This document shows positions 24,433 through 42,077 of a stretch of 42,077 bases of DNA, piece after piece. The stretch comes from Lachnospiraceae bacterium (lineage in GTDB: Bacteria > Bacillota > Clostridia > Lachnospirales > Lachnospiraceae), in NCBI GenBank assembly GCA_029062895.1, contig JAIDPF010000039.1, forward strand, positions 1 to 42,077, given 5' to 3'. Under the pieces are notes generated by a model. That model saw nothing but the letters and a program-made list of their open reading frames with translations. It made no database searches and had not been told where the DNA came from. The stretch's first letter is position 1; each line of letters starts with the position of its first letter. Both the position numbers and the translations under genes were made by a program.

Positions 24433-24442
24433 ACAAGGAACG

Positions 24443-24511: not shown

Positions 24512-25684
24512 ATGATACATCCCGGTTATTATGAGGAACTTGATAAATATGAGAAGCTTATTGCCCGTAAGAATGAGATTGATAAGACTTATTACAATGG
24601 AATCTATGACAGATATCAATATCCGGTTCTTACGGACCGTCATATCCCGCCGATGTGGAAATATGATCTGAATCAGGAAACGAATCCGTTCTTTATGGAG
24701 CGTCTTGGGGTAAATGCCGTATTTAATTCCGGTGCGATCGAACTGGATGGTAAGTTTTATCTGGTGGCGCGCGTGGAGGGCAATGACCGTAAATCTTTTT
24801 TCGCCGTTGCGGAGAGCGATAATGGCATTGATGGTTTCCGTTTCTGGGATTATCCGATCCTTTTGGATGATACTTGCCCGGAGGAAACAAATGTTTATGA
24901 TATGCGTCTGACGAAGCATGAGGATGGCTATATTTACGGTGTTTTTTGCTCTGAAAGTAAGGATCACAGCGTTAATGATCTGTCAGCGGCAGTTGCGGCG
25001 GCAGGTATTGTGAGAACGAAGGATCTGAAAACGTGGGAACGTCTGGAAAATCTGAAAACGCTTCATTCGCCCCAGCAGAGAAATGTAGTGCTTCATCCGG
25101 AATTTGTTCAGGGAAAGTATGCTTTCTATACAAGACCAATGGATGATTTTATCGATACAGGAAGCGGCGGCGGTATCGGGTTCGGACTTTGTGATGATAT
25201 CGAGCATGCAGTGATTGACGAGGAGATCATCACCAGCAAAAGAAAATATCATACGATTACAGAGTGCAAGAACGGTGCCGGTGCAGTCCCGATCAAAACG
25301 GAAAAGGGCTGGCTTCATATTGCGCATGGTGTCAGGAATACGGCAGCAGGACTTCGTTATGTTTTATATGCGTTTGCAACGGCACTGGATGACCCGACTA
25401 AGGTGATTGCGGAACCGGGGGGAATGTTGATGGGACCGCAGGGCATTGAGCGTGTCGGTGATGTTTCCAATGTGGTATTTACCAATGGCGCGATCGCGCG
25501 GGAGAACGGAGAAGTCTATATTTACTATGCGTCATCGGATACCAGACTTCATGTTGCGACAACGACCGTTGAACGGCTTCTGGATTATGTGTTCCATACA
25601 CCGGAGGATCCCCTGCGAAGCGTGGAATGTGTGGCACAGAGGACAAAGCTGATCGAAGCGAATTTAAAGCTTCTGCAGCAATAG
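24512..25684 (+). CDS. GH130 4-O-beta-D-mannosyl-D-glucose phosphorylase (GH130_1-like)
   Basis: A 390-residue cytoplasmic enzyme that splits mannosyl-1,4-glucose with phosphate into mannose-1-phosphate and glucose, completing the route that begins with the 2-epimerase. Features: [56 protein letters not shown] with the acid catalyst Asp130 (131 in the characterised Bacteroides enzyme by family knowledge), [23 protein letters not shown] and the C-terminal extension [15 protein letters not shown]. It is longer than the preceding GH130, as expected for this subgroup. AAAGG lies 11 nt upstream of the ATG. Having both GH130 types side by side matches the intracellular mannan pathway described for Lachnospiraceae. 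Confidence 0.92.
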
Positions 25685-25795: not shown

Positions 25796-25849
25796 TTTAT
25801 ATATGGGGCTTTTTTGCGCCGATGCAAAGGGTTAGATTAGGAGTTGCGC

Positions 25850-27382
25850 ATGTCAGATCATAAAAAGGTGTTGGTAAAGGGGATAGGGCTGATGTTATGT
25901 ATAACGGCACTCGGCGCATGTACATCGGCAGAAGGAACGCCGGGGACATCTGATAAGGAGACGGAAGCGGCAGTGTATTCCTGGGAGGAAGCGGATGTCT
26001 ATGAGGCAGAGGATGGCGCGCTGCTGGGCGGCGCTTCGATAGAGAGTGGTACGCAGGGCTATAAGGGTACAGGTTATGTAGCTGGGCTTGCGAATGAAGG
26101 CGACGGTGTCAGCCTGACGATTACAGTATCGGAAACAGGATTTTATGACCTGAATTTTATCAGCGCCAGTCAAGGCGGAGATTATAAAGAAAACTATGTG
26201 TTGATTGATGGGGAAAGCGCAGGGACGGTAAGCGTACAGTCGGGAACATTTACAGATTCCATTCTGCAGCGTGTGTATCTGGAAAGCGGTACGCATGAGA
26301 TCAGAATAACCAAGTACTGGGGATGGATTATGCTGGATAGGGTGTTGGTAAAGCAATCTGATGAACTGGCTGCCGATCTGTATCAGGTATCGCCGAAGCT
26401 TGTGAATCCCAATGCTACAGAAAACGCGCAGCGTTTGTTCAGTTATATGTGCGATATCTATGGAACACAGATCCTTTCGGGACAGTATTGTGATGACGGT
26501 ATGTATGGCATAGAGAATGCCGCCATCTGGAAGGCGACCGGTGGTGAATATCCGGCAGTGTTGGGACTTGACTTTATTGAGGCGTCTCCTTCCCGTGTTG
26601 CTAATGGTTCACAGAATTACGCGACACAGTATGCCATTGATTACTGGAATGAGGGCGGAATCGTTACCTTTTGCTGGCATTGGAACGCGCCGGAGAAGTA
26701 TATCACAGGTCAATGGTACAGCGCTTTCTATACGGATCATACCAATATTGACCTTGCAAAGATTATGAATGGAGAAGATCAGGAAGGATACAACCTTCTG
26801 ATGAGAGATATCGATGCTATTGCAAAAGAACTGCAGATATTGCAGGATGCAGGTGTGCCGGTGCTGTGGAGACCGCTACATGAGGCGTCCGGCGGATGGT
26901 TCTGGTGGGGAGCGTCGGGACCGGAGGCTTATAAGGAGCTTTATATTTTATTATATAATAAATTGACCAATGAATATGGTTTGAATAATCTGATCTGGAT
27001 CTGGAATGGTCAGGATGCGGAGTGGTATCCGGGGGATGAATATGTGGATATTATAGGCGAGGATATCTATCCGGGTGAACGCGTATATACCTCTCAGGCA
27101 GACACTTTCTTTAAAGCGGTGGAATGTACTGAGAGCAATAAGATGATTGTAATGTCGGAAAATGGCTGCCTTTTTGATCCGGCGCTAGCAGAGCGTGATG
27201 GCGCTATGTGGGGATTCTTCTGTACATGGCAGGGCGAGTTTGTTTTAAAGAATGACGCGTTAAATGTTCTTTCTGAGCAATATACGGAAGAGAGTATGGT
27301 GCGGCAGGTTTATGGGGATGAAAGAGTGATTACCAGATCAGAATTACCGGATCTGTTAAATTATCCTATACGCACGAATTAG
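25850..27382 (+). CDS. Surface lipoprotein endo-beta-1,4-mannanase, CBM35-like + GH26
   Basis: GH26 mannanases cut internal beta-1,4-mannosyl bonds. The 510-residue protein has a lipoprotein signal with lipobox ALGAC (Cys24). A CBM35-like beta-sandwich follows at about 45-180 (YEAEDGALLGGASIESG ... GYKGTGYV ... SETGFYDLNF). Then comes a GH26 barrel with LGLDFIEASPS, FCWHWNAP, WRPLHEASGGWFWWG (acid/base Glu345) and VMSENGC (nucleophile Glu437). It would be anchored on the outer face of the cell and make the oligosaccharides that the rest of the locus imports. I start at the ATG at 25850 with AGGAG 6 nt upstream; a TTG at 25844 immediately after that site is less likely. It lies 165 nt after the GH130 pair and has a possible own promoter. 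Confidence 0.94.
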   Translation: MSDHKKVLVKGIGLMLCITALGACTSAEGTPGTSDKETEAAVYSWEEADVYEAEDGALLGGASIESGTQGYKGTGYVAGLANEGDGVSLTITVSETGFYDLNFISASQGGDYKENYVLIDGESAGTVSVQSGTFTDSILQRVYLESGTHEIRITKYWGWIMLDRVLVKQSDELAADLYQVSPKLVNPNATENAQRLFSYMCDIYGTQILSGQYCDDGMYGIENAAIWKATGGEYPAVLGLDFIEASPSRVANGSQNYATQYAIDYWNEGGIVTFCWHWNAPEKYITGQWYSAFYTDHTNIDLAKIMNGEDQEGYNLLMRDIDAIAKELQILQDAGVPVLWRPLHEASGGWFWWGASGPEAYKELYILLYNKLTNEYGLNNLIWIWNGQDAEWYPGDEYVDIIGEDIYPGERVYTSQADTFFKAVECTESNKMIVMSENGCLFDPALAERDGAMWGFFCTWQGEFVLKNDALNVLSEQYTEESMVRQVYGDERVITRSELPDLLNYPIRTN

Positions 27383-28276: not shown

Positions 28277-31200
28277 ATGGCAGGAAAGCATCTGAATAGA
28301 AGGTTCTACAGAAAGGTGGTTTCGATAGCGTTGTGTGTGACGATGCTATCAGGGACATTCTTTTATCATGGCATGGATGTTGATGCTAAAACGGACCTTA
28401 CTCTGGATGACTACCGTGAAGAGGCCAGTACATATTCCGTAACCGGAGACGTCCCCGGTTATACAGAGTATCTGAATGTTCATGAGCAAGTCTTTCCTGA
28501 AGATGTGATTGAGATCGATGCTGCTGATTTTTGCCATTATGAGGATCGTGACGGCGTGGCAGAACCGGATGTTTATACAGATTATGAAGGTATGGAAGGT
28601 GACAGTGTTTTAACGACAGAGTCCGCATTGATTGAATTTGATTTTGAAGTTGCAACCAGCGGTTATTATGACCTCTCTTTGCTGTACTATCCCGTAGAAG
28701 GAAAAAGTTCTGAGATCCAGCGTTCCTTTTTCATTGACGGCGCGCTGCCTTATGGGGAACTCTCCCTGATCGAATTTTCCCGTGTCTGGACCACAAGTGT
28801 ATATGATTATTATATCAATGCGGATGATATTGAGGTTGCGCGTTGGCCGAAGGATAATCAGGGCAATGATCTGAAGCCGACGGCGATTGAAATTCCGGAA
28901 TGGATAGAAAGTTATCTATTTGACAGCAACGGATATATTACGGATGAACTGAAAGTTTATCTTGAGGCAGGATCCCATACCTTATCGATCATGTCTTTAA
29001 GGGAGCCGATGCTGATAAGAAAAATTATTTTCAGCAATTCCGAGGACCCGGAACCTTATGCTGTTGTAAAAGCCAACTGGGATACTATGGGTGTAGCACA
29101 GACCACCGGACAGAATATCCGGATTGAAGCGGAGAATGCGGTAAAAACATCCTCCCAGATGTTATATCCCAAACAGGATCAGTCTTCTCCTGCAGTTTAT
29201 CCTTCCAGCGCAAAGGAACTGTTGAATAACAGTATTGGTGGCACGAACTGGCAGAGTGCAGGACAGTGGATCGAGTGGGAATTTGAAGTCCCGGAAACAG
29301 GATATTACAATATCAGCATGTATGATAAACAGAATTTCGTCCGGGGTATCTATGTTTCAAGAAAGATCATGATTGACGGAGAGATTCCCTTTGCGGAGAT
29401 GAGTGATTACGGATTTGATTACGCCCAGAACTGGCGTCTGGATGTATTGTCCGACGATGAGGGTACGCCGTATCAGTTCTATCTGGAGAAAGGTACCCAT
29501 ACGATACGTATGGAGGTGGTACTGGGAGATTTCTCTGAAATCATCAGTACGGTACAGGATTCCGTACAGGATCTGAATGCCATTTACCGGAAAATCATCC
29601 GAATTACCGGTGTATCTCCTGATAAATACCGGGATTACCAGATTGCCAGTTCACTGCCCGAACTGCAGGGAGAGCTGGAGGAAGTCCGGGCAAAACTGGA
29701 CAGCGCGATTGTGGAACTGCAGGCGATTGCAGGCAGCAATACTGATAAGACAACAGTTTTGATCACTATGAGAGATCAGTTGGATGAGTTGATTTATGAT
29801 CAGGAACGTTTTACGGAGGTTATTAACTCCTATAAGATCAATGTACGTGCCTGCGGTAACTGGATCACTCAGGTCGTTACCCAGCCGCTGCAGATTGATA
29901 GGATCTATGTTTATTCTGACAGTTCGGAACCGAAGGTTGCCGGCGCTTCATGGTTCAGCAGATTGGTCTATGAGCTCAAAAGGTTATTTTATTCCTTTAT
30001 TATTGATTATAACCAGATCGGCAATATTGCGGATAGCAACACGGAGGGAACTACGATTACCCTTTGGGTTGGTACCGGACGGGATCAGGCCAACGTCATT
30101 AAAAATCTGATTGATGAATCCTTTACAAGTACAACGAATATTAACGTAAACGTTCAGTTAGTGGATATGAGTACGCTTCTGAAGGCATCGTTGGCGGGAG
30201 AGGGGCCCGATGTGGCAATCCAGGTAGGTCCGACGCAGGTGGCTACGGCACAGGGCAACGCCACTATGGTAAGCGCCTCTAATGATACGCCGGTCAATTA
30301 CGGCATCCGTAACGCAGTACTGGATCTGACACAGTTTGAGGATTATGAAGAAGTGGTTTCAAGATTCTCGGACAGCGCCCTTGTTCCGTTTACCTACAAT
30401 GGAGCGACTTATGCCCTGCCGGATACACAGACGTTCCTGATGATGTTTTATCGTAAGGATATTTTACAGGAGATCGGTCTGGAGGTACCCAGAACATGGG
30501 ACGAAGTGAAAGTTGCCATGACGGTTCTGTCTAAGAATCAGATGGAATTTGGTATGCTGCCGGGAGAACAGGTATTTGCCATGTTTTTGTTCCAAAACGG
30601 GGGAACCTACTATTCTCATGAGGGTATGGCATCGGCGTTAGATGAAGATGTTGCTGTTAATACATTTAAAGAATATTGTGAGTATTATACGGATTACAAA
30701 CTGGATAAAGAGACCAGTGTGGAGGAACGTTTCCGTACAGGGGAATGCCCAATTATTATTGCCGACTATACCGTGTTCAATAATCTTGCGGTATCGGCGC
30801 CGGATATCGAGGGACTTTGGGACTTTACAGTGGTACCCGGTATTATGCAGGAAGATGGTACGATCAATCATACCACCGGAAGTATCGGTGTTGCTGATAT
30901 GATTATGGCGGATACGGAATATCCGGAAGAAAGCTGGGAGTTTTTAAAATGGTGGACATCAGCGGAGACCCAGACGCTTTACGGACGGGAGATGGAGAGT
31001 CTGATGGGCGCTGCAGGACGTGTGGCGACTGCCAATGTTGAGGCATTAGGTAATCTGTCATGGCAAGTAGATGCTTACGAGGCATTGATGGAACAGTTTG
31101 AACAGGTGCAGGGCATCCCTCAGGTTCCGGGTGGATATTATACCTGGCGAAATGTGAACAATGCATTTTATTCCGTTACGACAGATACCAATACAGCGAC

Positions 31201-31294
31201 ACCAAGAGAATCTCTGATGGAAAAAGTAGAGTATATCAATGCTGAGATTGATTATAAACGGGAAGAACTTGGTCTTCCGATTCTGGAAGATTGA
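28277..31294 (+). CDS. Extracellular solute-binding protein (family 1) with N-terminal carbohydrate-binding-like domains
   Basis: An unusually large binding protein of 1005 residues; most such proteins have 400-550. A signal peptide (SIALCVTMLSGTFF, cleavage likely after VDA near residue 40) has no lipobox. Two galactose-binding-like beta-sandwich domains follow, about 95-240 and 283-440. They share SGYYDLSLLYYP and TGYYNISMYDK strands, a FFIDG/IMIDG turn and a GSHTL/GTHTI motif like those in CBM35. A helical stretch (about 450-520) joins them to a type-1 binding protein at 594-1005: ITLWVGTGRDQANVIK, LKASLAGEGPDVAIQVG, YALPDTQTFLMMFYRKDIL and SWEFLKWWTSAETQ. AAGGGAG is 9 nt upstream of the ATG. 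The permease genes follow directly, so it probably delivers manno-oligosaccharides to them; how it is held at the surface is unclear. Confidence 0.9.
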   Translation: MAGKHLNRRFYRKVVSIALCVTMLSGTFFYHGMDVDAKTDLTLDDYREEASTYSVTGDVPGYTEYLNVHEQVFPEDVIEIDAADFCHYEDRDGVAEPDVYTDYEGMEGDSVLTTESALIEFDFEVATSGYYDLSLLYYPVEGKSSEIQRSFFIDGALPYGELSLIEFSRVWTTSVYDYYINADDIEVARWPKDNQGNDLKPTAIEIPEWIESYLFDSNGYITDELKVYLEAGSHTLSIMSLREPMLIRKIIFSNSEDPEPYAVVKANWDTMGVAQTTGQNIRIEAENAVKTSSQMLYPKQDQSSPAVYPSSAKELLNNSIGGTNWQSAGQWIEWEFEVPETGYYNISMYDKQNFVRGIYVSRKIMIDGEIPFAEMSDYGFDYAQNWRLDVLSDDEGTPYQFYLEKGTHTIRMEVVLGDFSEIISTVQDSVQDLNAIYRKIIRITGVSPDKYRDYQIASSLPELQGELEEVRAKLDSAIVELQAIAGSNTDKTTVLITMRDQLDELIYDQERFTEVINSYKINVRACGNWITQVVTQPLQIDRIYVYSDSSEPKVAGASWFSRLVYELKRLFYSFIIDYNQIGNIADSNTEGTTITLWVGTGRDQANVIKNLIDESFTSTTNINVNVQLVDMSTLLKASLAGEGPDVAIQVGPTQVATAQGNATMVSASNDTPVNYGIRNAVLDLTQFEDYEEVVSRFSDSALVPFTYNGATYALPDTQTFLMMFYRKDILQEIGLEVPRTWDEVKVAMTVLSKNQMEFGMLPGEQVFAMFLFQNGGTYYSHEGMASALDEDVAVNTFKEYCEYYTDYKLDKETSVEERFRTGECPIIIADYTVFNNLAVSAPDIEGLWDFTVVPGIMQEDGTINHTTGSIGVADMIMADTEYPEESWEFLKWWTSAETQTLYGREMESLMGAAGRVATANVEALGNLSWQVDAYEALMEQFEQVQGIPQVPGGYYTWRNVNNAFYSVTTDTNTATPRESLMEKVEYINAEIDYKREELGLPILED

Positions 31295-31311
31295 GAAAGG
31301 AGGAAATGGAT

Positions 31312-32337
31312 TTGGCTGAGAAAACGCAGGAGTTAAATGATATGAAGGCTGACGACAATAAGAAGGCAGCTGATGTCATGACAGAGAAGCCAGAAACAAA
31401 GGAAAATGCCATCTCAGAAGAGGCTTTGGCAGTTGCGAAGAAGCAGGCCACGCTTTCTTATCAGATCCGTCGCGCGAGATGGTCTTACGGTATGATGTCA
31501 CCGTATTTTATCCTGTTTTTCTTCTTTACGGTACTACCGGTTGCGATGTCCATAGTACTCAGCTTCACCTATTTTAATATGCTGGAAATGCCTGAATGGG
31601 TGGGATGGAAAAACTATGTCAAACTGTTTTTGGACGACGACGTGTTTTTGATTTCCTTGAAAAATACCTTGTTATTTGCAGTTGTTACCGGACCGGTCAG
31701 CTATTTCCTGTGTCTGTTGTTTGCATGGATCATCAACGAATTTAAGGGATGGCTTCGTTCCTTCCTGACATTGATCTTTTATGCTCCTTCGATTTGCGGT
31801 AATGCTTATCTGGTATGGAATCTGATTCTGACAGGTGACAGATACGGATATTTGAATGGTTTGTTATTAAAATACGATATCATTAACGAGGCGATTTTAT
31901 GGATGAAGACGGCAAAATGGATCATGCCTTGTCTGATCGTCGTACAGCTCTGGTTGTCGCTTGGTACCGGTTTTCTTTCCTTTATCGCAGGTCTTCAGAC
32001 GATCGATAAGAGTTTGTATGAAGCCGCGGCGTTGGACGGCGTCAAGAACCGCTGGCAGGAGTTATGGTATGTAACGCTTCCGGCGATGAAACCGCAGTTG
32101 ATGTTTGGCGCGGTTATGCAGATTACACAGTCTTTTGCCGTTGCGGATATCTCCGTGCAGCTGGCGGGTAATCCTTCCGTCAATTATGCTGGCGCAACTG
32201 TAGTAACGCACCTTTTGGATTATGGTAATACGCGATTTGAGATGGGTTACGCATCTGCGGTCGCAACGGTTCTGTTCCTTTTGATGGTTGGTACGAATAA
32301 GTTGGTACAGAGAATTTTAAGGAGGGTGGGCGAATAA
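31312..32337 (+). CDS. Sugar ABC transporter permease, MalF/UgpA type (pair 1)
   Basis: A 341-residue inner-membrane permease with six hydrophobic segments and the cytoplasmic EAA loop (EAAALDG at residue 237 onward, closing in TLPAMKP) that docks the ATPase. The first 45 or so residues are a charged Lys/Glu/Asp-rich cytoplasmic tail. Start choice is not simple: AAAGGAGG (31296-31303) is 8 nt from this TTG, only 2 nt from an in-frame ATG at 31306, and downstream of a TTG at 31291 that overlaps the previous stop. I prefer 31312 for spacing. The stop overlaps the next permease start by one base (TAATG). No ATP-binding gene is in the window, so a shared ATPase of MsmK type elsewhere in the genome is expected. 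Confidence 0.93.
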   Translation: MAEKTQELNDMKADDNKKAADVMTEKPETKENAISEEALAVAKKQATLSYQIRRARWSYGMMSPYFILFFFFTVLPVAMSIVLSFTYFNMLEMPEWVGWKNYVKLFLDDDVFLISLKNTLLFAVVTGPVSYFLCLLFAWIINEFKGWLRSFLTLIFYAPSICGNAYLVWNLILTGDRYGYLNGLLLKYDIINEAILWMKTAKWIMPCLIVVQLWLSLGTGFLSFIAGLQTIDKSLYEAAALDGVKNRWQELWYVTLPAMKPQLMFGAVMQITQSFAVADISVQLAGNPSVNYAGATVVTHLLDYGNTRFEMGYASAVATVLFLLMVGTNKLVQRILRRVGE

Positions 32338-33344
32338 TGTCTAAGCAAGCAAAAACTGTTGACGTAAAACCGTCTGACAATAAAATGTCCGACGCTAAAA
32401 CATCTGACGCTAAACCGTCCGACACCAAAAAGTCCGACACTAAAAAGTCCGACGGGGGGGTGTCTGCACCTGCTAAGATTAAGTTTAAGCGGCGCAGACG
32501 CGAGAAGCAGTTAAACCGTTCCATGGCGGGTAATACATTATTATTTGCACTGATGATCTTCTGCGGAGTATTTATGGCTCTGCCGCTGGTCATGATCATA
32601 AACAACTGCCTGAAGCCCTTGGATGAGTTGTTCCAATATCCTCCAAAGCTTTTTGTGAGAAATCCGACGCTGGAAAATTTTACGGACCTGTTTGTTTTGA
32701 TGAATGATACATGGGTTCCGTTTTCCAGATATATTTTAAATACGATCATTATTACAGTTGGCGGTATGGTAGGGCATGTTATATGTGCCTCTTTGGCAGC
32801 TTACCCGCTGGCAAAGCATAAATTCCCCGGAAAAGATATCCTCTTTTCCATGGTAGTGCTTTCCATGATGTTTTCATGGACGGTTACACAGATCCCTCAG
32901 TATATGATCATTTCCTGGCTGGGTATCAATAACAATTATCTTGCGTTGATCCTGCCGGCATGGAGTTTTGGTATGGGTCTTTACCTGATGAAGCAGTTTA
33001 TGGAGCAACTGCCGGATTCCCTGATGGAGTCGGCAAGGCTGGATGGGGCGAATGAGCTTACCATCTTCTGGAAGATCGTGATGCCGAATGTAAAACCGGC
33101 ATGGCTTACACTGGCTATCTTCCAGTTTCAACAGATGTGGTCCAATACAGGTGCGTTGTTCCTGCGGGATGAGCAGTTAAAACCGCTGCAGTTCTCTTTA
33201 CAGCAGATCACCGCAGGCGGTACGGCACGTGCTGGGGCGGCGGCAGCGGTTACTTTTTTGATCGCGGCAGTACCGATCATATTTTTCCTGATTTGCCAGA
33301 GAAATGTATTGGAGACGATGACGACTTCTGGTATGAAAGATTAA
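32337..33344 (+). CDS. Sugar ABC transporter permease, MalG type (pair 1), with repetitive N-terminal tail
   Basis: A 335-residue permease partner with six hydrophobic segments, the EAA-type loop ESARLDGAN near residue 231 and the usual C-terminal RNVLETMTTSGMKD. AAGGAGG precedes the ATG, which overlaps the upstream stop by one base. The N-terminal 45 residues are odd: six imperfect copies of a five-residue Lys-Ser-Asp unit (KPSDN, KMSDA, KTSDA, KPSDT, KKSDT, KKSDG) encoded by 15-bp repeats and ending in a run of seven G. A Lys/Arg-rich segment (KFKRRRREK) then leads to the first membrane helix. Homologues normally start a few residues before that helix, so the repeat is a local addition that probably lies in the cytoplasm. 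Confidence 0.93.
   Translation: MSKQAKTVDVKPSDNKMSDAKTSDAKPSDTKKSDTKKSDGGVSAPAKIKFKRRRREKQLNRSMAGNTLLFALMIFCGVFMALPLVMIINNCLKPLDELFQYPPKLFVRNPTLENFTDLFVLMNDTWVPFSRYILNTIIITVGGMVGHVICASLAAYPLAKHKFPGKDILFSMVVLSMMFSWTVTQIPQYMIISWLGINNNYLALILPAWSFGMGLYLMKQFMEQLPDSLMESARLDGANELTIFWKIVMPNVKPAWLTLAIFQFQQMWSNTGALFLRDEQLKPLQFSLQQITAGGTARAGAAAAVTFLIAAVPIIFFLICQRNVLETMTTSGMKD
32367..32459 (+). repeat. 15-bp imperfect tandem repeats ending in a G7 run, in a permease 5' end
   Basis: About six units of a TCCGAC-type 15-bp repeat, followed by seven consecutive G at 32453-32459. The unit length is in frame, but slippage in the G run would shift the frame and remove the permease. Confidence 0.85.
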
Positions 33345-33493
33345 ATATGAGAAGAACTTCTAGCTGCTTGCAGCAGAGGCTGCTTCGCAGAGAAGTTCTA
33401 AATCCCATATCGAAGAACGCAAGGACGGCGTTCTTCTACAAATGAAAAGTTTGCGATTGCCGATACAGAGTAAGTTTGGAAAGGAGTATGGCT
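33345..33493. repeat. Intergenic mosaic repeat element C (hairpins)
   Basis: Shares an identical 21-bp block (33348-33368) and AAAGTTTGCG (33446-33455) with element B. Within it, AGAACTTCT (33353-33361) pairs with AGAAGTTCT (33391-33399) around two small hairpins. GAAGAACGC (33412-33420) pairs with GCGTTCTTC (33428-33436). It separates permease pair 1 from the NHL gene and ends with the ribosome binding site GGAAAGGAG of that gene. Confidence 0.7.
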
Positions 33494-34996
33494 ATGAAGA
33501 TAAAAGCATGGAAATCTGTATTTGCCGGGATACTGGCGGCTTTGGTGCTCAGTCTCTCATTCACGGAGAGCGTTTCGGCAGAAGATCTTCCGTACAATCC
33601 ATATGCGTATGATTACTGGGATGATGTCGTACATACACCTGCAGCTTATGAACCCGCAGGTATGATCAGGGGCGGCGATCTGCTTTATAATGGAGAATCC
33701 ATAGGAGCATTTACCAATCCTCAGGATCTATGTAAATCCGAAGATGGCAATATCTATGTAGCGGACACAGGTAATCAGAGAATTGTTGTATTGAACCAGA
33801 ATATGACAGAAGTCGTAAATATTTATTCATCCTTTGACAATAACGGTACAGAGGATACGTTTAATATGCCCACTGGTGTCTGTGTTTCGTCAAAAAACTG
33901 GCTGTATATTGCAGATTCCATGAACCGCCGTGTTGTAATTTTGGATATTGCAACCGGAGAGCTGATGGGGATTGTGGAAAATCCGCAGTCTGACATCTTA
34001 GAGGCGGGATACGTGTTTACACCGTTGAAAGTATCCGTGGATTATGCGGACCGTGTTTATTGTATTGCTCAGAATATGTTTGAAGGCATTATGGTATTTG
34101 AGGCCAATGGCGAATTTACAGGATTTTTCGGAACGATAGAGGTGCAGATTTCGCTTTGGGAAAAATTCTGGAGAAGGATTGCGACAAAGGAGGAACGATC
34201 CAAATCACAGCTTTTTATTCCGACTGAATTTACGGGAATCGATGTAGATAGCGATGGTTTTGTCTATGCGACTAATATCGACTTAGAGGGACTGCAGGGT
34301 GTGCGTCGGCTGAATCCCAGAGGTGAGGACGTCATCAAGCAGGGTGAGAATGAGAACGTTGGCGGCGATCTTTGGATCGAAGGTTCTACGGATTATGCCG
34401 GTCCTTCTCAGATCACAGATGTTGTTTATCGGGATAAAGGAATCTTCTCTCTGCTTGACCGTAAGCGTGGCAGGATATTTACCTACGATCATGAGGGCAA
34501 CCTTTTATACATTTTTGGCGGACTTGGAACACAGGTAGGTACCTTTATGGCACCGGTGGCAATCGAGTCTGTGGGGAATCAGATCGTTGTTCTGGATTCC
34601 AACAGGGCAGCTATCTTCTGCTTTAATGAAACAGAATATGGCAGACTAATCAATGAGGCAGTCAGACTTCGTTATGATGGTGATGAAACTCAGGCGGTAG
34701 AAATGTGGAGACAGGTATTGATTCTGAATGAAAATTTTGAGCTTGCCAATTCTGGTATCGGTAAGGCGTATCTGACGGCAAAGGATAATGAAACTGCGAT
34801 GTATTATCTCAGGCTGGGCATGAACCGGGAATATTATTCGATTGCCTTTAAGAGATACCGCAATGATATCTTGAAAGCGAACCTGAATTATATTTTGACT
34901 GGTATGATGGTGATTATTATCGGATATCTGGTGGGGTCAAATATCGTAAAGAAGAAAAAGGGAACCCAGAAAGAGGAGGATATACTGAATGGATAA
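33494..34996 (+). CDS. NHL-repeat beta-propeller protein with TPR-like segment and C-terminal membrane anchor
   Basis: A 500-residue exported protein: signal peptide (AWKSVFAGILAALVLSLSFTESVSA). An NHL-type propeller follows, with repeated blades (NPQDLCKSEDGNIYVADTGNQRIVVLN; MPTGVCVSSKNWLYIADSMNRRVVIL; the later blades FTGIDVDSDGFVYATN and FMAPVAIESVGNQIVVLDSNRAAI). A TPR-like helical part comes next (GDETQAVEMWRQVLILNENFELANSGIGKAYL), then one membrane helix near 470-490 and a KKKK cytoplasmic tail. The topology is therefore outside-propeller, single-pass. NHL propellers usually bind proteins or ligands; no enzyme motif is seen. I start at 33494, with AAGGAG 7 nt upstream; the earlier ATG at 33488 is too close. 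It overlaps the Yip1-like gene by 8 nt. Confidence 0.85.
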   Translation: MKIKAWKSVFAGILAALVLSLSFTESVSAEDLPYNPYAYDYWDDVVHTPAAYEPAGMIRGGDLLYNGESIGAFTNPQDLCKSEDGNIYVADTGNQRIVVLNQNMTEVVNIYSSFDNNGTEDTFNMPTGVCVSSKNWLYIADSMNRRVVILDIATGELMGIVENPQSDILEAGYVFTPLKVSVDYADRVYCIAQNMFEGIMVFEANGEFTGFFGTIEVQISLWEKFWRRIATKEERSKSQLFIPTEFTGIDVDSDGFVYATNIDLEGLQGVRRLNPRGEDVIKQGENENVGGDLWIEGSTDYAGPSQITDVVYRDKGIFSLLDRKRGRIFTYDHEGNLLYIFGGLGTQVGTFMAPVAIESVGNQIVVLDSNRAAIFCFNETEYGRLINEAVRLRYDGDETQAVEMWRQVLILNENFELANSGIGKAYLTAKDNETAMYYLRLGMNREYYSIAFKRYRNDILKANLNYILTGMMVIIIGYLVGSNIVKKKKGTQKEEDILNG

Positions 34997-35654
34997 AAAT
35001 ATTTCCAAAGACAGCAGTTTTATAAAGAAGTATTTCTCCTCGGAGAAATGGAAGTATCTTTGGTATACGCTCTCACATCCGATGGACGGGTTTTATTGGA
35101 TCCGCCGTAAGGATAAGGGTAGCGTGCCCATAGCGATTTTACTGGTGATCTGTTTTTCTTTCTGTTTTTCTTTAAACAGATATCTTGCCAGTTTTGTAGT
35201 TAATGATATCAATCCGAGGTCTGTTAATTCTCTGTCGGAGCTGGGCGGCGTATTACTCTTATATGTGCTGCTCTGTGTGGGGAACTGGTCGATCACCTGC
35301 CTGATGAACGGAGAAGGAAGGATGAAGGATATTTCCATTGCGGTAGGATACGCAACGCTGCCGTTGATTCTGACTTTCATTCCGGCAACGATCATCAGCC
35401 GTGCGATTGCAGCAGATGAAGAATCGTTTTACTATATGATCCTTGCGGTTGGTATTGCTTACGCGGTAATTTTACTTCTGATCGGCATTATGCAGGTGCA
35501 TAATTATACCTTAGGCAAGACGCTGATTACACTGTTTTTAACTTTGATCGCCGTATTTATTATTATTTTCCTGCTGCTTCTGCTGCTGAATCTGATCAGT
35601 CAGGTATATACTTTCTTTTACAGTATTTATACGGAGCTGATTTTCAGGGCGTAG
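34989..35654 (+). CDS. Yip1-family integral membrane protein
   Basis: A 221-residue protein with about five or six hydrophobic segments after a cytoplasmic N-terminal part that reads WKYLWYTLSHPMDGFYWIRRKDKG, the usual lead-in of bacterial Yip1-domain proteins. Other family-like features are GNWSITCLMNGEGRMKDISIAVGYATLPLI and a polar IISRAIAADEESF loop. GAGGAGG is 9 nt upstream of the ATG, which lies inside the end of the NHL gene, so both are translated together. Bacterial Yip1 proteins have no settled function. Its place between the NHL and DUF5696-like proteins suggests a membrane scaffold of the same complex, which is inference. Confidence 0.83.
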   Translation: MDKNISKDSSFIKKYFSSEKWKYLWYTLSHPMDGFYWIRRKDKGSVPIAILLVICFSFCFSLNRYLASFVVNDINPRSVNSLSELGGVLLLYVLLCVGNWSITCLMNGEGRMKDISIAVGYATLPLILTFIPATIISRAIAADEESFYYMILAVGIAYAVILLLIGIMQVHNYTLGKTLITLFLTLIAVFIIIFLLLLLLNLISQVYTFFYSIYTELIFRA

Positions 35655-35710
35655 CCGGAGAGATGGGAATAAACAGGGTTTAAGATCTATGTAGGATAAA
35701 GGAGAAGCAT

Positions 35711-38389
35711 ATGAAATTGCCAAATCCATTTGCTAAGAAAAGCCATATTACGGAAGAAGAGGATATCTATAAGGATAGGTACGTCGAGGTTCCCAAGAAG
35801 CAGAAAAAAAAGCTGGGAAAACCCGGTAAAATTCTTCTTGGATTGCTAGGGATCGTTTTGGTTTGCGTACTGATCTGGCTGGTATATTATATTGTGCATT
35901 ACCATAATTACAATGCGTACCGACAGTTTCTTACGAGCTATGACTATGAGGAGGGAACCAGCTTTGTGCCGATCAGTGAGACTACTCCTGATGTAGAGGG
36001 TATGGTTCTGGCAGCTGAGAATGAGTATCTGAAGCTTTATACGAATGTGGAAACGGCTGAGATCGCGGTATATGATAAGCGGAGTGGTGCGACTACCTAT
36101 TCGAATCCGGTTGATCTGGAAGATGACGCAATCGCTAATGAAACAAATAAGAATTATCTGAGATCACAGTTTATTCTGGATTATTATAATAGTGCGAAAT
36201 CACCGGGAAGTTTTGACTCTTATTCTGCTTCTGTTGATCTGGGACAGGTGACCGTCAAGGCGATAGAGAATGGTATCCGTTATTCTTATAAAGTCGGGAC
36301 GGCGGCGAATGCTACGGGAATTGTTCCTAAGTATATACGGCCAAAGGTTCTGGAGGACGTGATCGATGCTCTGCCGGAAGAGGAACAGGAGACCTGTGCC
36401 GGCTATTTCAGGGAGAGTACGACGGTAGCGGGATATATGGAACTGAAATCGTCTGTGGCGAGCTCTACCGCGATACTTGCCATCATTAATGATATGTTTG
36501 AGCGTGCCGGATTTACCAGTGAGGATTATGTAGAGGAGCTTACCCAAGCAGGAATGGAGGAGCTGCTTTCTCCAAACTTTACCATTGAGATCGAATACCG
36601 CTTAAATGGTGACGGACTGGATGTGTCTGTTCCGGTATGTTCTATCATTGAAGGCGGCGGCGCGAAGATTTACCGTATCCAGCTGTTGAAATATATGGGT
36701 GCGGCAGGCGTCGATGAACAGGGATACATAGTTGTGCCTAATGGTTCTGGTTCCATTATTAATTTTAATAACGGAAAGACAAATGTAGCTGATTACTCTC
36801 AGTATATTTATGGTATGGATCCTTTGTCACAGGAATATACCATCTTGGAGAATACCGAAAAAGCAAGACTTCCACTGTTTGGGATTTCAAAGGAAAACAG
36901 CGATCTTTTGGTGACAATAGAGGATGGGGCTTCGTTGGCATTTATTACGGCTTCCGTCTCAGGGAAGGTCAACAGTTATAATTATGCGTATCCATCCTTT
37001 GTGCTCCGTGGCTTTGATACCTTATCCATGTTTGGTACGACAGGACAGTCTGCAGAGCTTCCGGTATTGGAGAAGAACTGCTATGATGTCAACATGACGG
37101 CTAGATATACCTTTTTGGATGAGGACCATACAGGTTATTGCGGCATGGCCAATTATTATAGAGAACGATTGATAGCAGAAGGCGTTTTGACAGAGCTTGT
37201 CAGTGACACAGAGCTTCCGTTCTATTATGATGTGATAGGCGGCGTAAAGCTGACGTCCCATGTTCTGGGTGTGCAGTATTTGAGCGTATTTCCGATGACG
37301 ACATTTGAGGAAGCAGAAGCCATTTCTAATGATCTTGCAGCCAATGGCGTGGCGAATCAGGTAATGAATTTTCAGGGTTGGTTCAACGGTGGTTATTATC
37401 ACGATGTTGCAGACCGGATCCGCGTTACGCTTAAGCTTGGTGGAAAATCAGGCTTAGAAAGTTTAAGCAGTACAGTTGCGGCTAATGGCGGTACTTTTTA
37501 TGGAGATGTGGCGTTCCAGAAGGCGACCTTTATCAGCAGACGGTATCAGTATATGTTGGAATCTTCCAGATATTATGGTGCCGGTTATGTGGCGAATTTT
37601 GGACAGATCAATCCGTCAACTTTGCGTCAGACGTCCGGTTTGGGATATCGGGAGACAAAATATGATCTTGTTTCTCCCAAATTCCTGCCAAGATATGTGG
37701 CTGAATTTACGGAGAGAATTGTCAATTATGATATTACAGGAATCTCCCTGCGGGATCTGGGCGATACACTGCATTCTGACAGAAGAAGAACAAATGTGAT
37801 CAACCGTGAAGAGGCACTTGATGTAGTTCTGGGGCAGTTTGACGCGCTTGAAGCCGTAGGAAAGGATATTATGGTGAATGGCGGCAACGCATATGCGTTC
37901 GCCTATGTGGATGATATCATCAATGCGCCGGTCAGAGATAATGATTATTTTATCATCGATCAGGATATACCGTTCTATGAAATGGTGATTCATGGTTATA
38001 TCAATTACTGCGGAACGCAGATTAATAACGTAAGTACGGACGATAAACAGGAAGACCTTCTGGAACTGATCGAATATGGGGCTGCGCCGCATTATATCTT
38101 TACATGGGAAAATGCAACGGAGATGAAGTACAGCGGTTTGAATATGTACTATGCAACGACTTACACAAATTGGAGCGCGGAAGCCGTTGAGACCTATCGT
38201 ATGTTAAGCGAGGCGTTGAATCCTGTTATGGGTGCGGAGATGGTTGCTCATGAGGCGTTGGAAAACGGGTTGAGAAAAGTCACCTATAGCAATGGAGTCT
38301 GCATCTATGTCAATTATACGGAGAAAGATATTACGCAGGACGGTATCGTAGTGCCGGCAAGAGATTATGAGATAGGAGGTGTGAATTAA
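35711..38389 (+). CDS. Membrane-anchored DUF5696-like protein, possible uncharacterised glycoside hydrolase
   Basis: An 892-residue protein with a basic cytoplasmic start, one membrane helix at about residues 37-57 (LLGLLGIVLVCVLIWLVYYI) and a large extracellular part, so a type II anchor. Residues about 90-500 look like a beta-sandwich domain (YLKLYTNVETAEIAVYDKRSG; GGGAKIYRIQLL; VPNGSGSIINFNNGKT). The next 350 look like a TIM barrel: VANQVMNFQGWFNGGYYHDV, GGTFYGDVAFQKATF, YDITGISLRDLGDTLHSD, GKDIMVNGGNAYAF and YFIIDQDIPFYEMVIHGYINY. This two-part design is seen in several retaining glycosidase families, and acidic residues (RDLGD, DQDIP) sit at strand ends. I recall this protein type as DUF5696, without a described activity. 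AAAGGAG is 6 nt upstream. It overlaps the next permease by one base. Confidence 0.75.
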   Translation: MKLPNPFAKKSHITEEEDIYKDRYVEVPKKQKKKLGKPGKILLGLLGIVLVCVLIWLVYYIVHYHNYNAYRQFLTSYDYEEGTSFVPISETTPDVEGMVLAAENEYLKLYTNVETAEIAVYDKRSGATTYSNPVDLEDDAIANETNKNYLRSQFILDYYNSAKSPGSFDSYSASVDLGQVTVKAIENGIRYSYKVGTAANATGIVPKYIRPKVLEDVIDALPEEEQETCAGYFRESTTVAGYMELKSSVASSTAILAIINDMFERAGFTSEDYVEELTQAGMEELLSPNFTIEIEYRLNGDGLDVSVPVCSIIEGGGAKIYRIQLLKYMGAAGVDEQGYIVVPNGSGSIINFNNGKTNVADYSQYIYGMDPLSQEYTILENTEKARLPLFGISKENSDLLVTIEDGASLAFITASVSGKVNSYNYAYPSFVLRGFDTLSMFGTTGQSAELPVLEKNCYDVNMTARYTFLDEDHTGYCGMANYYRERLIAEGVLTELVSDTELPFYYDVIGGVKLTSHVLGVQYLSVFPMTTFEEAEAISNDLAANGVANQVMNFQGWFNGGYYHDVADRIRVTLKLGGKSGLESLSSTVAANGGTFYGDVAFQKATFISRRYQYMLESSRYYGAGYVANFGQINPSTLRQTSGLGYRETKYDLVSPKFLPRYVAEFTERIVNYDITGISLRDLGDTLHSDRRRTNVINREEALDVVLGQFDALEAVGKDIMVNGGNAYAFAYVDDIINAPVRDNDYFIIDQDIPFYEMVIHGYINYCGTQINNVSTDDKQEDLLELIEYGAAPHYIFTWENATEMKYSGLNMYYATTYTNWSAEAVETYRMLSEALNPVMGAEMVAHEALENGLRKVTYSNGVCIYVNYTEKDITQDGIVVPARDYEIGGVN

Positions 38390-39522
38390 TGGCTAAAAAA
38401 CAACTATCTCAGGAACATAGTAATACAAAGGTAAAGAAGGAAGCTGCAGCACTGGGAAAAGAGCAGGAAACAGCCACAGAAGCGGTAAATACTGCTGAAG
38501 AGGCACAAAAAGAAGAATCTACCGCAGAAGCGAAAAAAGAAGAATCTGCTACAGAAAGATCCGGGAAGGAAGAAAAGCGGGATAAGGCGCCTAAGGCAGA
38601 TGGTGGATCCTCTAAGAAGAAAAGAACGATGGGTCTGACGGCAAGAAGAACGATGAATGGTTATCTTTTTATTCTGCCGTGGCTGGTGGGCTTTATCGTG
38701 TTCTACTTGAGAAGTTTAATTCTGACGATACAGTTCTCTTTGTCAGAACTTTCGGTAGGCGCTGTGGGAGGATATACGCTGGAGTGGAAAGGGCTGGAGA
38801 ATTTTATCTATGCTTTCCGTGTGCATGCGGAATTTAAGCAGATCCTGACGACTTCCATCGCCGATATGCTGATTGATGTTCCGCTGATTACATTCTTTAG
38901 TTTATTTATTGCGCTTTTATTAAACAAGAAATTTCCGGGCAGAACACTAGTGCGTGCCATCTTTTTCCTGCCGGTTATCCTGAATGCGGATGCGATAACG
39001 GCGGCGATGGATCTGGCAAGACAGATGATGGCGGGCGGTTTATCTTCCACTAGCGCGGAAGTTGCAGAGTCAGCCTCTGGCGTTAGCGTAGATTATTATA
39101 TTATGCTGTTGGGTGATCTTGCCCTGCCGGATGCCGTCTTACAATATATTGTGGAGGCAGTGAACAGGATCAGTGATATCATCACCGCTTCTGGTGTGCA
39201 GATTATTATATTTATTGCTGCTCTGCAGTCCATTCCGGGTTCTATGTATGAGGTTGCCAAGATCGAGGGTGCGACGGCATATGAAACCTTTTGGAAGGTA
39301 ACATTCCCGATGGTAATGCCACATATTATTACCAATGTGGTTTATACGGTGGTAGACAGCTTTGCAGACAGTGATGTTGTTGACCTGGCATATAAGACGG
39401 CGTTTAAACTGGGTAATTACGGGTTGAGTTCGGCATTCAGCTTGATTAGTACGGTGGTTACTTGTCTGATTCTGGTGATCGTATGCAGATTTATTCAGAA
39501 GAGGACATTCTACTACAATTAG
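38389..39522 (+). CDS. Sugar ABC transporter permease, MalF/UgpA type (pair 2), with charged N-terminal tail
   Basis: A 377-residue permease with six hydrophobic segments and an EAA-type loop EVAKIEGATAYETFW at residue 288 onward. Its first 80 residues are a Lys/Glu/Ala-rich cytoplasmic tail with imperfect repeats (AQKEESTAEAKKEESATERSGKEEK), far longer than in usual MalF-like proteins. AGGAGG is 9 nt from the ATG, which overlaps the preceding stop. The long gap between the third and fourth hydrophobic segments (AEVAESASGVSVDY) is also unlike pair 1, so the two pairs are not simple duplicates. Together with the next gene it forms a second translocation channel; whether it shares the large binding protein or uses the lipoprotein beginning at 40609 is unknown. 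Confidence 0.92.
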   Translation: MAKKQLSQEHSNTKVKKEAAALGKEQETATEAVNTAEEAQKEESTAEAKKEESATERSGKEEKRDKAPKADGGSSKKKRTMGLTARRTMNGYLFILPWLVGFIVFYLRSLILTIQFSLSELSVGAVGGYTLEWKGLENFIYAFRVHAEFKQILTTSIADMLIDVPLITFFSLFIALLLNKKFPGRTLVRAIFFLPVILNADAITAAMDLARQMMAGGLSSTSAEVAESASGVSVDYYIMLLGDLALPDAVLQYIVEAVNRISDIITASGVQIIIFIAALQSIPGSMYEVAKIEGATAYETFWKVTFPMVMPHIITNVVYTVVDSFADSDVVDLAYKTAFKLGNYGLSSAFSLISTVVTCLILVIVCRFIQKRTFYYN

Positions 39523-39536
39523 GAAGGAGAGTTCCG

Positions 39537-40541
39537 ATGGGATCAGAAAGTAAAGAAAAAAAATCTATTTTTCTGCGTTTTAAGGAATATCGACAGGGTA
39601 AGGATTTCCATAATGATAAAAAGGGTTTTATTGCTTCAGGCAAAAAACTGATTATAGATATCTTCCGTTTTTTGATCATTGTTGGGATCAGTTATGTTAT
39701 CTTGTCGCCGGTAATCGGAATTGTTGTTAATTCCTTCTTTTCGGATGCAGACGCATATAATCCGATGGTTTATATGATTCCCCAGGATCCGACGACCAGC
39801 CGCTATGATCTTGTGTTAGAACGACTAAACTACTGGACGACTTGCAGTAAGACGCTGTTATATTCGGCTTCTTTAATGTTGATACAGGTTGTGATCTGTT
39901 CCATGGTAGGGTATGGATTTGCAAGGTTTAATTTCCCCGGAAAGAATATTTTATTTGCTTGTGTGGTGGTTATGATCGTAATTCCGGCGCATACCATTAT
40001 GCTGCCTTTATATACCACCTTTAAAAATTTCGATCCTTTTGGTATAATAACATTAATTAAGGGTGCTCCGATCAATCTGATGGGAAGCAGCGCTCCAATG
40101 TATATCATGACTGCGTTGGGCTGCGGACTGCGTTCTGGTCTGTACATCTACATATTTAACCAGTTTTTCCGCGGTCTGCCAAAAGAGATCGAGGAAGCTG
40201 CATTTGTAGATGGCGCTGGGGTATGGTATACTTATTTTAGAATCATGTTGGTAAATGCGATCCCATCCGTTATTACAGTGGCTGTATTTTCGATGGTATG
40301 GCAGTATAATGACACATTTTACGCGAATCTGTTTCTGATCAGTTCGGATGTAATCATCGGTATGAAGATTTCTACCCTGCAGGCAACCATCGCCAATCTT
40401 GATAAGATTCTTGACCCGACGATTCAGGAACTTTATCTGGATGCCGGCATCGTACTGGTCATGCTGCCTGTTGTAATTATTTATGTAATACTACAAAGGC
40501 ACTTTATTGAAGGTGTTGAGAGAAGCGGTATTGTCGGTTAA
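39537..40541 (+). CDS. Sugar ABC transporter permease, MalG type (pair 2)
   Basis: A 334-residue permease with six hydrophobic segments; the EAA-type loop (EEAAFVDGAGVWYTYFRI) starts at about residue 219, and the C-terminus (QRHFIEGVERSGIVG) is the usual MalG ending. I choose the ATG at 39537, with GGAAGGAG about 6 nt upstream, lying 14 nt after the previous stop. The longer open frame from 39462 overlaps the preceding permease out of frame and has no ribosome binding site. The N-terminal charged part is short compared with the other three permeases. It is the partner of the gene before it. Confidence 0.93.
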   Translation: MGSESKEKKSIFLRFKEYRQGKDFHNDKKGFIASGKKLIIDIFRFLIIVGISYVILSPVIGIVVNSFFSDADAYNPMVYMIPQDPTTSRYDLVLERLNYWTTCSKTLLYSASLMLIQVVICSMVGYGFARFNFPGKNILFACVVVMIVIPAHTIMLPLYTTFKNFDPFGIITLIKGAPINLMGSSAPMYIMTALGCGLRSGLYIYIFNQFFRGLPKEIEEAAFVDGAGVWYTYFRIMLVNAIPSVITVAVFSMVWQYNDTFYANLFLISSDVIIGMKISTLQATIANLDKILDPTIQELYLDAGIVLVMLPVVIIYVILQRHFIEGVERSGIVG

Positions 40542-40608: not shown

Positions 40609-42077
40609 TTGAAAGCAAAAATTGCAAAGAAATTACTTTCTGTATTGCTTGCAACGGTTTTGGTAACAGCGAGTCTTACTGCATGTGGTGGAGACGGTGC
40701 TGAGACGACCGGAGGCAATGAAACAGAAACAGGAACGGAAGTCGACGATACGGTTCCCGTAGATGATGCAGCAGGCGTTGATACCCCTGCGACGGCAGCA
40801 AGCGTTGATTTTGAAGACGGGGCAAGCGCTTTTGTCAAGATGAACCTGTTAAAGGGAACTCCGGATGAGTCTCTTTTATCCGTTGTAGATTTTAATGGTT
40901 CTAAGGCTCTGTATGTGGAGAACGTATCCGGAAAATCTATGTTCGTTGGTATCAATGTAAGCGCGCTGGTTGGCAATAAGATCACAGATATCAGCACGAT
41001 CACTATGGATATCGGAACATCCCGTGCGGACGGTTCTTTCGCAGCAGTATCCGGTTATCTGTATGCTTATACAGGAGAAAAAAATGAAGAAGTAAAAGGG
41101 GATAGCTGGTCGGTTTATCTGGAGACAGCAAATCCTAAGACAGCTGTATTTGACGTATCTGGTGCAGGATTTGTAGCAGGTGCGGACAATTATATTATCC
41201 TGTCCAAAGAGACGGATAATAACACAGCGTCTGCAGCAAGTTTGTATATTGATAATATTACTTTCCTGGATGCTTCCGGTAATGTAATCGAAGCGGATAC
41301 TTCCGTTGATTTTGGTTCTCCGGAAGGATTTGAGAGTGCAGGTACGGATCTTTCGAATCTGTGTGGAATTACAGATGCCGTAGTCTTTGAAGGATTTGAA
41401 ACAAGCGGAGATGGATGGTCACAGGTAGGATTTACCATGCCGCAGGATATTCTTGATGCATTGGTACCGGGTTCTGTTGTTCAGATCGAGTATGCTTCCG
41501 AGAATGGCGATATGTGGATTGTTATGAACGAAGCAGAGGCAGGCTGGTCAAGAGTTGGTGTTGGAAATATTGACGGCAGTGAATCTTCTGCAGCTTATAT
41601 CAATAATTCCAAAAATATTTGTCAAATAACATATGAGCAGATTGCAGAGAAGTGCAGTGACGATGTATCTACCTGGGGAACGACGATGCAGTGTGAGGCT
41701 TCCGGTGCATGGCAGGTATATAGTGTAAAGGTTGGACAGAGAGCGCCTCATTATGCAGTAGCAGATGCCGTAACCTTTGAAGGATTTGCAACAAAGGGAG
41801 ATGCATGGTCACAGGCAGGATATACCATGCCGCAGGAAATTCTTGATGCGCTTGTTCCTGGAGCAATCGTAGAAATCAGCTACACATCTGAGACAGGTGA
41901 TATGTGGATCGTAATGAATGAAGCAGAGGCAGGCTGGTCAAGAGTCGGCGTTGGAAATATTGACGGCAGCGGTTCTTCCCCTGCAGTATTTGATGGAAGC
42001 AAGTGTTATGTAACATATGAACAGATTGCAGAGAAGTGCGGTGATGACGTATCTACCTGGGGAACGACAATGCAGTG
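40609..42077 (+). CDS. Lipoprotein with carbohydrate-binding-like domains, 3'-truncated by window edge
   Basis: An open frame from TTG at 40609 runs to the window end without a stop. The start is supported by GGAGG at 40593-40597, 11 nt upstream; the ATG inside that stretch (40598) is out of frame and stops after four codons. The protein opens with a lipoprotein signal, lipobox SLTAC (Cys26) and an acidic Gly/Thr-rich linker. Next is a beta-sandwich of about 160 residues beginning ASVDFEDGASAF and ending SLYIDNITFLDASGN, which resembles mannan-binding CBM domains. Two copies of a 130-residue module follow, the second cut off. At least 489 residues are present. What follows, a catalytic or a solute-binding domain, cannot be seen. 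Its place after permease pair 2 and the mannanase locus suggests mannan binding. Confidence 0.85.
   Translation, partial: MKAKIAKKLLSVLLATVLVTASLTACGGDGAETTGGNETETGTEVDDTVPVDDAAGVDTPATAASVDFEDGASAFVKMNLLKGTPDESLLSVVDFNGSKALYVENVSGKSMFVGINVSALVGNKITDISTITMDIGTSRADGSFAAVSGYLYAYTGEKNEEVKGDSWSVYLETANPKTAVFDVSGAGFVAGADNYIILSKETDNNTASAASLYIDNITFLDASGNVIEADTSVDFGSPEGFESAGTDLSNLCGITDAVVFEGFETSGDGWSQVGFTMPQDILDALVPGSVVQIEYASENGDMWIVMNEAEAGWSRVGVGNIDGSESSAAYINNSKNICQITYEQIAEKCSDDVSTWGTTMQCEASGAWQVYSVKVGQRAPHYAVADAVTFEGFATKGDAWSQAGYTMPQEILDALVPGAIVEISYTSETGDMWIVMNEAEAGWSRVGVGNIDGSGSSPAVFDGSKCYVTYEQIAEKCGDDVSTWGTTMQ
41374..42077 (+). repeat. 390-bp tandem module duplication inside the terminal lipoprotein gene
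   Basis: Copy 1 spans 41374-41763 and copy 2 starts at 41764 and runs off the window. Both encode FEGFxTxGDxWSQ, TMPQ-ILDALVPG, GDMWIVMNEAEAGWSRVGVG, TYEQIAEKC and DDVSTWGTTMQC. The DNA is close to identical over long stretches, with mostly third-position changes, indicating a fairly recent duplication. The module resembles a small beta-sandwich binding domain rich in Trp. Confidence 0.9.

Follow-up and report, generated by a model that had tools for sequence, protein, structure and literature searches.

The 42,077-nucleotide window analysed here (positions 1-42077 of a 53,334-base contig, JAIDPF010000039.1, from the Lachnospiraceae bacterium assembly GCA_029062895.1; contig coordinates beyond 42077 lie outside the window) contains a run of eight genes at 28277-40541. 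All are on the forward strand and stand in the order solute-binding protein (SBP1), permease A1, permease B1, NHL β-propeller protein, Yip1-domain protein, DUF5696 protein, permease A2 and permease B2 (Table 1). We read this gene set, with a probability of about one half, as a reusable glycan-uptake cassette of the Bacillota, in which two CUT1-type ATP-binding cassette (ABC) importers and two solute-binding proteins would surround a docking assembly made of anchored NHL, Yip1 and degenerate GH129-like DUF5696 proteins. In gut and other Firmicutes one conserved gene set is reused beside enzymes for different plant fibres, which hints at a shared fibre-uptake machine. The genes overlap or are closely spaced, the sole exception being a 131-base gap 3' of permease B1. 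Pfam backs every named cassette gene, with BPD_transp_1 present in all four permeases, and the coordinates and gene calls given by an earlier first-pass annotation of the window are right.

The gene set is a conserved module, beyond chance. Loci were collected through DUF5696 alone, so that the other cassette genes are unselected neighbours. The collection comprises all 16 loci from a protein search, 60 places from a search of 200 genomes of the family (the best 60 besides the window among 71 with E ≤ 1e-90; at most six candidates per genome were scored in most genomes) and 20 places in 19 genomes out of the 37 that were positive in a 398-genome search of the phylum. Two contigs were represented both among the 16 protein-search loci and among the 60; with those two loci removed from the 16, the set numbers 95 including the window. 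Four members of the set (L003-L006) share 94-98% identity with the window, of which they are not independent. By a scripted check the exact full order is found in 70 of the 95 loci, 16 are incomplete near a sequence end and nine are incomplete despite room. One of the 16 end-cut loci, L064, does carry Yip1 (G134:C13:29797-30426), which brings the complete loci to 71. Outside the family, the order is kept in 13 of 20 loci from 19 genomes. Departures include an additional permease-A frame that separates DUF5696 from B2 (L069) and a B1 gene that is not in place (L099), both despite room, as well as extra frames between B1 and NHL (L122) and a locus without recognised SBP1 or permease pair 1 (L116); in L128 gene calling failed, by eye owing to high G+C. 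The first-pass annotation had fixed beforehand that a gene order not conserved in other genomes would refute its proposal of an undescribed system; the order proved conserved, and the proposal holds in the form of a conserved, apparently unnamed module.

Judged by sequence, both permease pairs are CUT1-type ABC importers, MalF/MalG-type with an EAA loop. The E and G of this loop occur in 98-100% of slots pA1, pA2 and pB1, while in slot pB2 D and G are invariant (100%) and E stands at 89%. With this ATPase-coupling loop conserved throughout the four slots, each pair seems to be a functional importer. Recent duplication of one pair was rejected as their origin: slot-1 and slot-2 permeases form separate clades, fully split in the trees (A, 170/170; B, 167/167; support 1.0). 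No ATPase was found among the cassette proteins scanned; two MalK-type (OB_MalK) ATPases are encoded elsewhere in the genome, on contigs C52 and C107.

SBP1 and SBP2 are the predicted solute-binding proteins of the operon, as fits CUT1 importers. In SBP1 the SBP_bac_8/1 match covers residues 615-909 of a 1012-aa frame. This protein had been described as fused to a carbohydrate-binding module (CBM), which is partly borne out: the first ~550 residues match no CBM family, and two β-sandwiches with a helical insert appear in the N-terminal part of a low-confidence model (pLDDT 54.7), on which we base no fold claim. Among 12 SBP1 orthologues, three match GH115_C (best 3e-5) and two match Golvesin_C (best 4.7e-6). 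A lipobox is missing in 72 of the 73 orthologues over 850 aa that were compared, the remaining one being lipobox-like. The first-pass annotation counted one binding protein, but an SBP2-like gene lies beside 74 of the 95 cassettes (after the cassette in 68, before it in six; 11 could not be judged), by a loose rule that accepts either similarity to SBP2 or a lipobox with a length of 380-620 residues. SBP2 itself has no Pfam or NCBIfam family. The only solved relative found for it is the arabino-oligosaccharide-binding protein 6rjy, which we take to be AbnE and to belong to a single-pair importer; we know of no NHL, Yip1 or DUF5696 partner of that importer. An SBP2-like example of the arabinan type matches the solved binding protein 22hh at 1.7e-14.

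Across the 200 genomes of the family, NHL (E ≤ 1e-20) occurs in 43, all of them within the 44 that have DUF5696 at E ≤ 1e-50 (a cut-off set after seeing the list), and Yip1 (E ≤ 1e-10) occurs in 38, all within the same 44. The hypergeometric value for the NHL-DUF5696 overlap is 4e-43, a figure that ignores descent. In the sole genome with DUF5696 only (G030), the protein found is of another kind (L136) and keeps both catalytic acids. The five genomes without a Yip1 match besides it (G012, G029, G047, G157 and G181) have Yip1, fused or separate, according to a custom profile. Fusions occur as well: 28 loci have no separate Yip1 gene, and in these the Yip1 domain sits after the hydrophobic stretch of the NHL protein. 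These fusions have 672-835 residues, apart from one of 444 that is cut by the contig end, and all 20 from the family set are matched by both single window proteins, NHL and Yip1, at E ≤ 1e-5. Neither a fusion nor a separate pair was found by script in L128 or in L064, the locus whose Yip1 gene is given above. Because of the 28 natural fusions, NHL and Yip1 are predicted to behave as one unit. The window NHL protein has hydrophobic stretches at 15-33 and 473-491 (hydropathy), and the Yip1 domain spans residues 25-196 of 221, most of its protein; an NHL domain outside, one transmembrane segment, a short cytoplasmic linker and then Yip1 would be a consistent topology.

That the operon is an ordinary duplicated CUT1 importer, with extra genes that have no joint mechanism and are carried along through shared regulation, seems improbable: sugar ABC importers are often duplicated and operon order alone can reflect co-regulation, but NHL and strong DUF5696 go together in 43 of 44 genomes, NHL and Yip1 are fused, the permease pairs are distinct clades, and a binding protein with further permeases recurs downstream instead in the loci where the order differs (L115, L123, L126 and L127).

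The glycan context at the window locus is β-mannan, because its upstream partner is a CBM35-GH26 β-mannanase. Mannan genes adjoin some cassettes, the window's included, but the mannan specificity assumed by the first-pass annotation is not supported across related cassettes. Other neighbours in the 76 family and near loci, scanned with one representative per cluster and leaving out 20 distant loci, are GH51-type arabinofuranosidase (10 loci), GH43 (two clusters, nine and seven loci), GH3 (six), GH106 (four), GH31 (three), GH5 (three), GH67 (two) and UxuA (two). A mannan-only system was rejected since related cassettes adjoin these genes; cassettes stand next to mannan, arabinan, xylan (glucuronoxylan: GH67 with UxuA) or rhamnoside enzymes. 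Marker genes gave a glycan class for 39 of the 95 loci: 24 mannan, 11 arabinan and four GH106/dehydrogenase. The pairwise identities of seven slots correlate at 0.918-0.970 (70 loci; compared among linked cassette genes only). Up to nine Yip1-marked copies occur in one genome (G173), and for the 33 DUF5696 proteins of the 12 genomes with more than one cassette in the set, the nearest relative is in the same genome for seven and usually in another genome. From these two comparisons, of slot identities and of nearest DUF5696, cassettes appear to pass down as whole units that follow glycan lines.

The DUF5696 protein has a hydrophobic stretch by eye and an N-terminal helix at 37-71 in an AlphaFold2 model (17 sequences, pLDDT 69.3). 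The helix is followed by a β-sandwich, then a TIM-like barrel and finally a second sandwich at the C-terminus. The top Foldseek matches are GH129 structures (5opq, 4.9e-23; 5wzp, 2.3e-17), with GH101 and GH36 after them, and the protein is predicted to have the three-domain fold of GH129. Its sequence has no match in the PDB up to E = 1. The overall fold of the modelled ectodomain resembles that of the GH129 enzymes NagBb (5wzn) and a Zobellia enzyme (5opq/8rzk). Unlike these enzymes, DUF5696 has a membrane helix and its aligned Asp/Glu pair is incomplete in 88 of 95 members, and for the latter reason it was rejected as an ordinary GH129. In a joint alignment with genome relatives, the GH129 catalytic Asp and Glu, presumably D435 and E478 in NagBb, fall on window D682 and N723; the window protein thus keeps the Asp and has Asn in place of the Glu acid/base. 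For GH101, the mutants D764N and E796Q are named in PDB titles. A register shift restores no conserved Glu, because the columns of G724 and G725 hold E or D in only 14 and one of the 95 members, by the residues listed. Both acids are present in seven of the 95 cassette proteins, only the first in 43, only the second in 24 and neither in 21. In comparison, all 14 relatives outside the cassette set (12 GH129-like, two L136-type) have both, and the two L136-type proteins are the closer control since the other 12 are true GH129. The relatives found in the genomes with lengths of 626-715 residues are plain GH129: 5wzn is matched by one of them at 2e-266, and the rest match it either at E ≤ 1e-238 or with 76% identity. 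The replacements follow the glycan class, all 24 mannan loci having D/E at the first place and 23 of them N/S at the second, while the 11 arabinan loci all have G at the first place and nine of them E/D at the second. We read DUF5696 as having probably lost catalytic function and retained a class-specific cleft. Class-switch columns in the barrel (22 of 33, versus 23 of 59 shared columns) were not used as evidence, since descent and glycan class are confounded here.

The first-pass annotation suggested that the exported and anchored proteins may trim the chains; for DUF5696 this is not supported, the catalytic pair being mostly incomplete. Its idea of two channels that differ in chain-length preference is unsupported as well. 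DUF5696 could still be a new kind of trimming glycoside hydrolase that uses residues different from those of GH129. The GH129/GH101-like fold would suit such an enzyme, as would the seven members with both acids and several mostly acidic positions: D507, D599, D682, D690 and D750 in 84-100% of the 50 members that are acidic at 682, and E788 in 96-100% of both groups, acidic at 682 or not. We consider this unlikely, however: where position 682 is not acidic (45 members), no columns within residues 480-892 other than E788 and that of A823 reach 80% acidic residues, and the acid/base place is fixed as N/S in the mannan class and the nucleophile place as G in the arabinan class.

DUF5696 matches at E ≤ 0.001 occur in 79 of the 200 family genomes, and 59 lie over the cut-off. 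The weak matches are not all cassettes; those examined were GH129 (12), GH101 (one), GH13 or branching enzymes (four, one by eye) and two unnamed proteins. Intact, NagBb-like GH129 genes recur in the family genomes (the 12 at L129, L130 and L148-L157). The two unnamed proteins L136 and L147, of 560 and 584 aa, are intermediate between DUF5696 and GH129, keep both catalytic acids and are candidates for an unassigned enzyme family.

As a glycan-uptake cassette, the system would work as follows. Secreted endo-enzymes, GH26 at the window locus, would cut the polysaccharide, and the CBM65 lipoprotein, SBP1 and the DUF5696 cleft would hold the chains at the membrane, with NHL-Yip1 as a scaffold that keeps these chain-holding proteins beside both permease pairs. 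The large SBP1 would be exported, SBP2 a lipoprotein. Both importers would take in oligosaccharides, powered by one common MsmK-type ATPase whose gene lies elsewhere, and GH130, epimerase and GH36 would then dismantle these inside the cell. Like a SusC/SusD pair, each paralogous cassette would be adapted to a single glycan.

Several points weigh against this reading. The physical complex and its function are what we infer, as are binding and transport. An SBP2-like gene was not found, by the loose rule, beside 10 of the 95 cassettes, and seven of the nine loci incomplete despite room come from distant families. In one locus (L085:6621-12829) a histidine-kinase-like gene takes the NHL place and overlaps Yip1, with no NHL. 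The DUF5696 model is middling, with a TM-score to GH129 structures of 0.44-0.50 by query length, and its residues 682-697 and 723-752, which hold the mapped catalytic places, are below pLDDT 50, so that the catalytic mapping depends on the sequence alignment alone. Half of the dyad is often kept (nucleophile only in 43, acid/base only in 24), and with one column of slack 16 of the 95 members have both acids; some DUF5696 members could therefore be enzymes. Separately, L085 was counted among the 16 end-cut loci and its genome carries several cassettes; the kinase-like gene may truly have replaced NHL or may stem from a chimeric assembly.

Kinase-like genes near some cassettes (a cluster in three loci, and L085) and the class-fixed residues at the aligned catalytic places of a degenerate enzyme fold could also point to a transmembrane glycan sensor, in which NHL, Yip1 and DUF5696 gate the importers or signal to operon regulators and do not hold substrate. 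This is rather doubtful, as the three proteins contain no recognised signalling domain, their genes stand between the two permease pairs inside a transport operon in 70 of 95 loci, and separate LacI-like genes (nine open reading frames) are present in some of the same loci.

SusC/SusD pairs in Bacteroidetes are paralogous uptake units, each tuned to one glycan, and the uptake of long fibre fragments by monoderm bacteria is less understood. The likeness of the cassette to SusC/SusD is one of working only, a paralogous surface uptake unit being reused with different sets of carbohydrate-active enzymes. The cassette differs in having ABC importers and not TonB-dependent channels; no related part was found, and no protein of the operon that was scanned has a Pfam match to a TonB-dependent channel or SusD lipoprotein. 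As a tentative extension, a general Gram-positive counterpart of SusCD may be envisaged: a single multi-protein machine whose pseudo-glycosidase, together with a scaffold of NHL-Yip1, would dock polysaccharide chains and pass them to two distinct ABC channels, with copies of the machine adapted to each plant glycan across the Bacillota.

Among described systems, the MULL/MULS mannan loci of Roseburia intestinalis comprise GH26, two GH130, an epimerase, GH36, a LacI-type regulator, esterases and a manno-oligosaccharide ABC importer (Nat Commun 2019, PMC6385246). The window locus is similar in its mannan catabolic genes and ABC importer, whereas MULL/MULS have one binding protein and two permeases; the portions of that article at hand do not mention NHL, Yip1, DUF5696 or a second permease pair, words that were not searched for there. 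Gram-positive polysaccharide utilization loci that join glycoside hydrolases, an ABC transporter and a regulator have been reported in Lachnospiraceae (Microb Genom 2016, PMC5320581). Cassette loci share this composition; no such cassette is described in the portions at hand of that article, and 'NHL' is absent from its main text. DUF5696 was found in no paper of the open-licence PMC literature, and a description of the cassette (NHL, Yip1, permease, polysaccharide) was not found there either, some of these searches covering top matches only. The cassette is thus apparently an undescribed variant of the ABC glycan importer and not a member of SusCD or GH129. Kept across several Bacillota families, it would mark glycan-specific uptake loci and hint at what DUF5696, a bacterial branch of Yip1 and an NHL family do.

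Table 1 Features of the cassette and its surroundings (window positions unless marked as contig; MFE, minimum free energy)
Feature	Position	Strand	Evidence and remarks
Two GH130 mannoside phosphorylases	23407..25684	+	GH130 4e-70 and 1.1e-23
CBM35-GH26 β-mannanase, upstream	25844..27382	+	GH26 1.4e-75, CBM_35 1.6e-20
SBP1, predicted exported solute-binding protein, ~1005 aa	28277..31294	+	SBP_bac_8 3.1e-18; without lipobox
Permease A of pair 1 (MalF-like)	31291..32337	+	BPD_transp_1 4.6e-13; EAA loop conserved, 78 slot members
Permease B of pair 1 (MalG-like)	32337..33344	+	BPD_transp_1 4.4e-15; EAA loop, 80 slot members
Intergenic hairpins and dispersed repeat C	33345..33475	+	MFE -43.2 kcal/mol, z -3.6
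NHL β-propeller protein	33476..34996	+	NHL 5.7e-16; helical region (TPR-like by eye), one C-terminal hydrophobic stretch
Yip1-domain multi-pass membrane protein	34989..35654	+	Yip1 4.3e-14; 8-base overlap with NHL gene
DUF5696 protein	35711..38389	+	PF18952 6.1e-197; N-terminal membrane helix, predicted GH129/GH101-like extracellular domain
Permease A of pair 2	38389..39522	+	BPD_transp_1 8.6e-9; clade separate from pair 1
Permease B of pair 2	39462..40541	+	BPD_transp_1 6.6e-12; clade separate from pair 1
Lipoprotein (lipobox by eye) with CBM65 domains	40609..42077, on to contig 42264	+	CBM65_1 9.6e-45, two stretches
SBP2, beyond the window, after the CBM65 lipoprotein	contig 42341-43819		matches 6rjy 1.3e-11

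The start codon of the NHL gene is probably 12-18 bases inside the listed open reading frame, and the true start of permease B2 probably lies near 39537, by eye. The gap after permease pair 1 contains repeat element C, as the first-pass annotation had noted, with 79% identity over 48 nt to window 27369-27416. The element is hairpin-forming and occurs twice inside the operon (27369-27416 and 33332-33379). Genome-wide it is found at 15 places on 13 contigs with at most three mismatches, compared with none for a reversed control, and because it is dispersed through the genome it was rejected as a component of the cassette. No RNA family scored above threshold within the window.

Upstream of the cassette lie genes for GH2, GH36, a GlcNAc 2-epimerase-family protein, LacI, the two GH130, GH26-CBM35 and a DUF624 protein. 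At 17244-18722, flanked by GH36 and the epimerase, is a 492-aa protein with a lipobox-like start and an acidic C-terminal tail (by eye) and without a Pfam match. Downstream, partly past the window, follow the CBM65 lipoprotein, SBP2, a small hydrophobic protein of no Pfam family and a GDSL esterase. The first-pass annotation left out the CBM65 lipoprotein, which starts inside the window, and SBP2 lay beyond its reach. Repeated CBM65-type units are found at window 41372-42077 and on the contig up to 42264 (L019 to 2264); a masked stretch of N begins at about the window end, so that the CBM65 repeat number visible in the lipoprotein may not be the true one. Further along the contig, at 45739-48048 (L019:5739-8048), a single frame of 769 aa appears by eye to join a GH1 enzyme to a mannose-6-phosphate isomerase.

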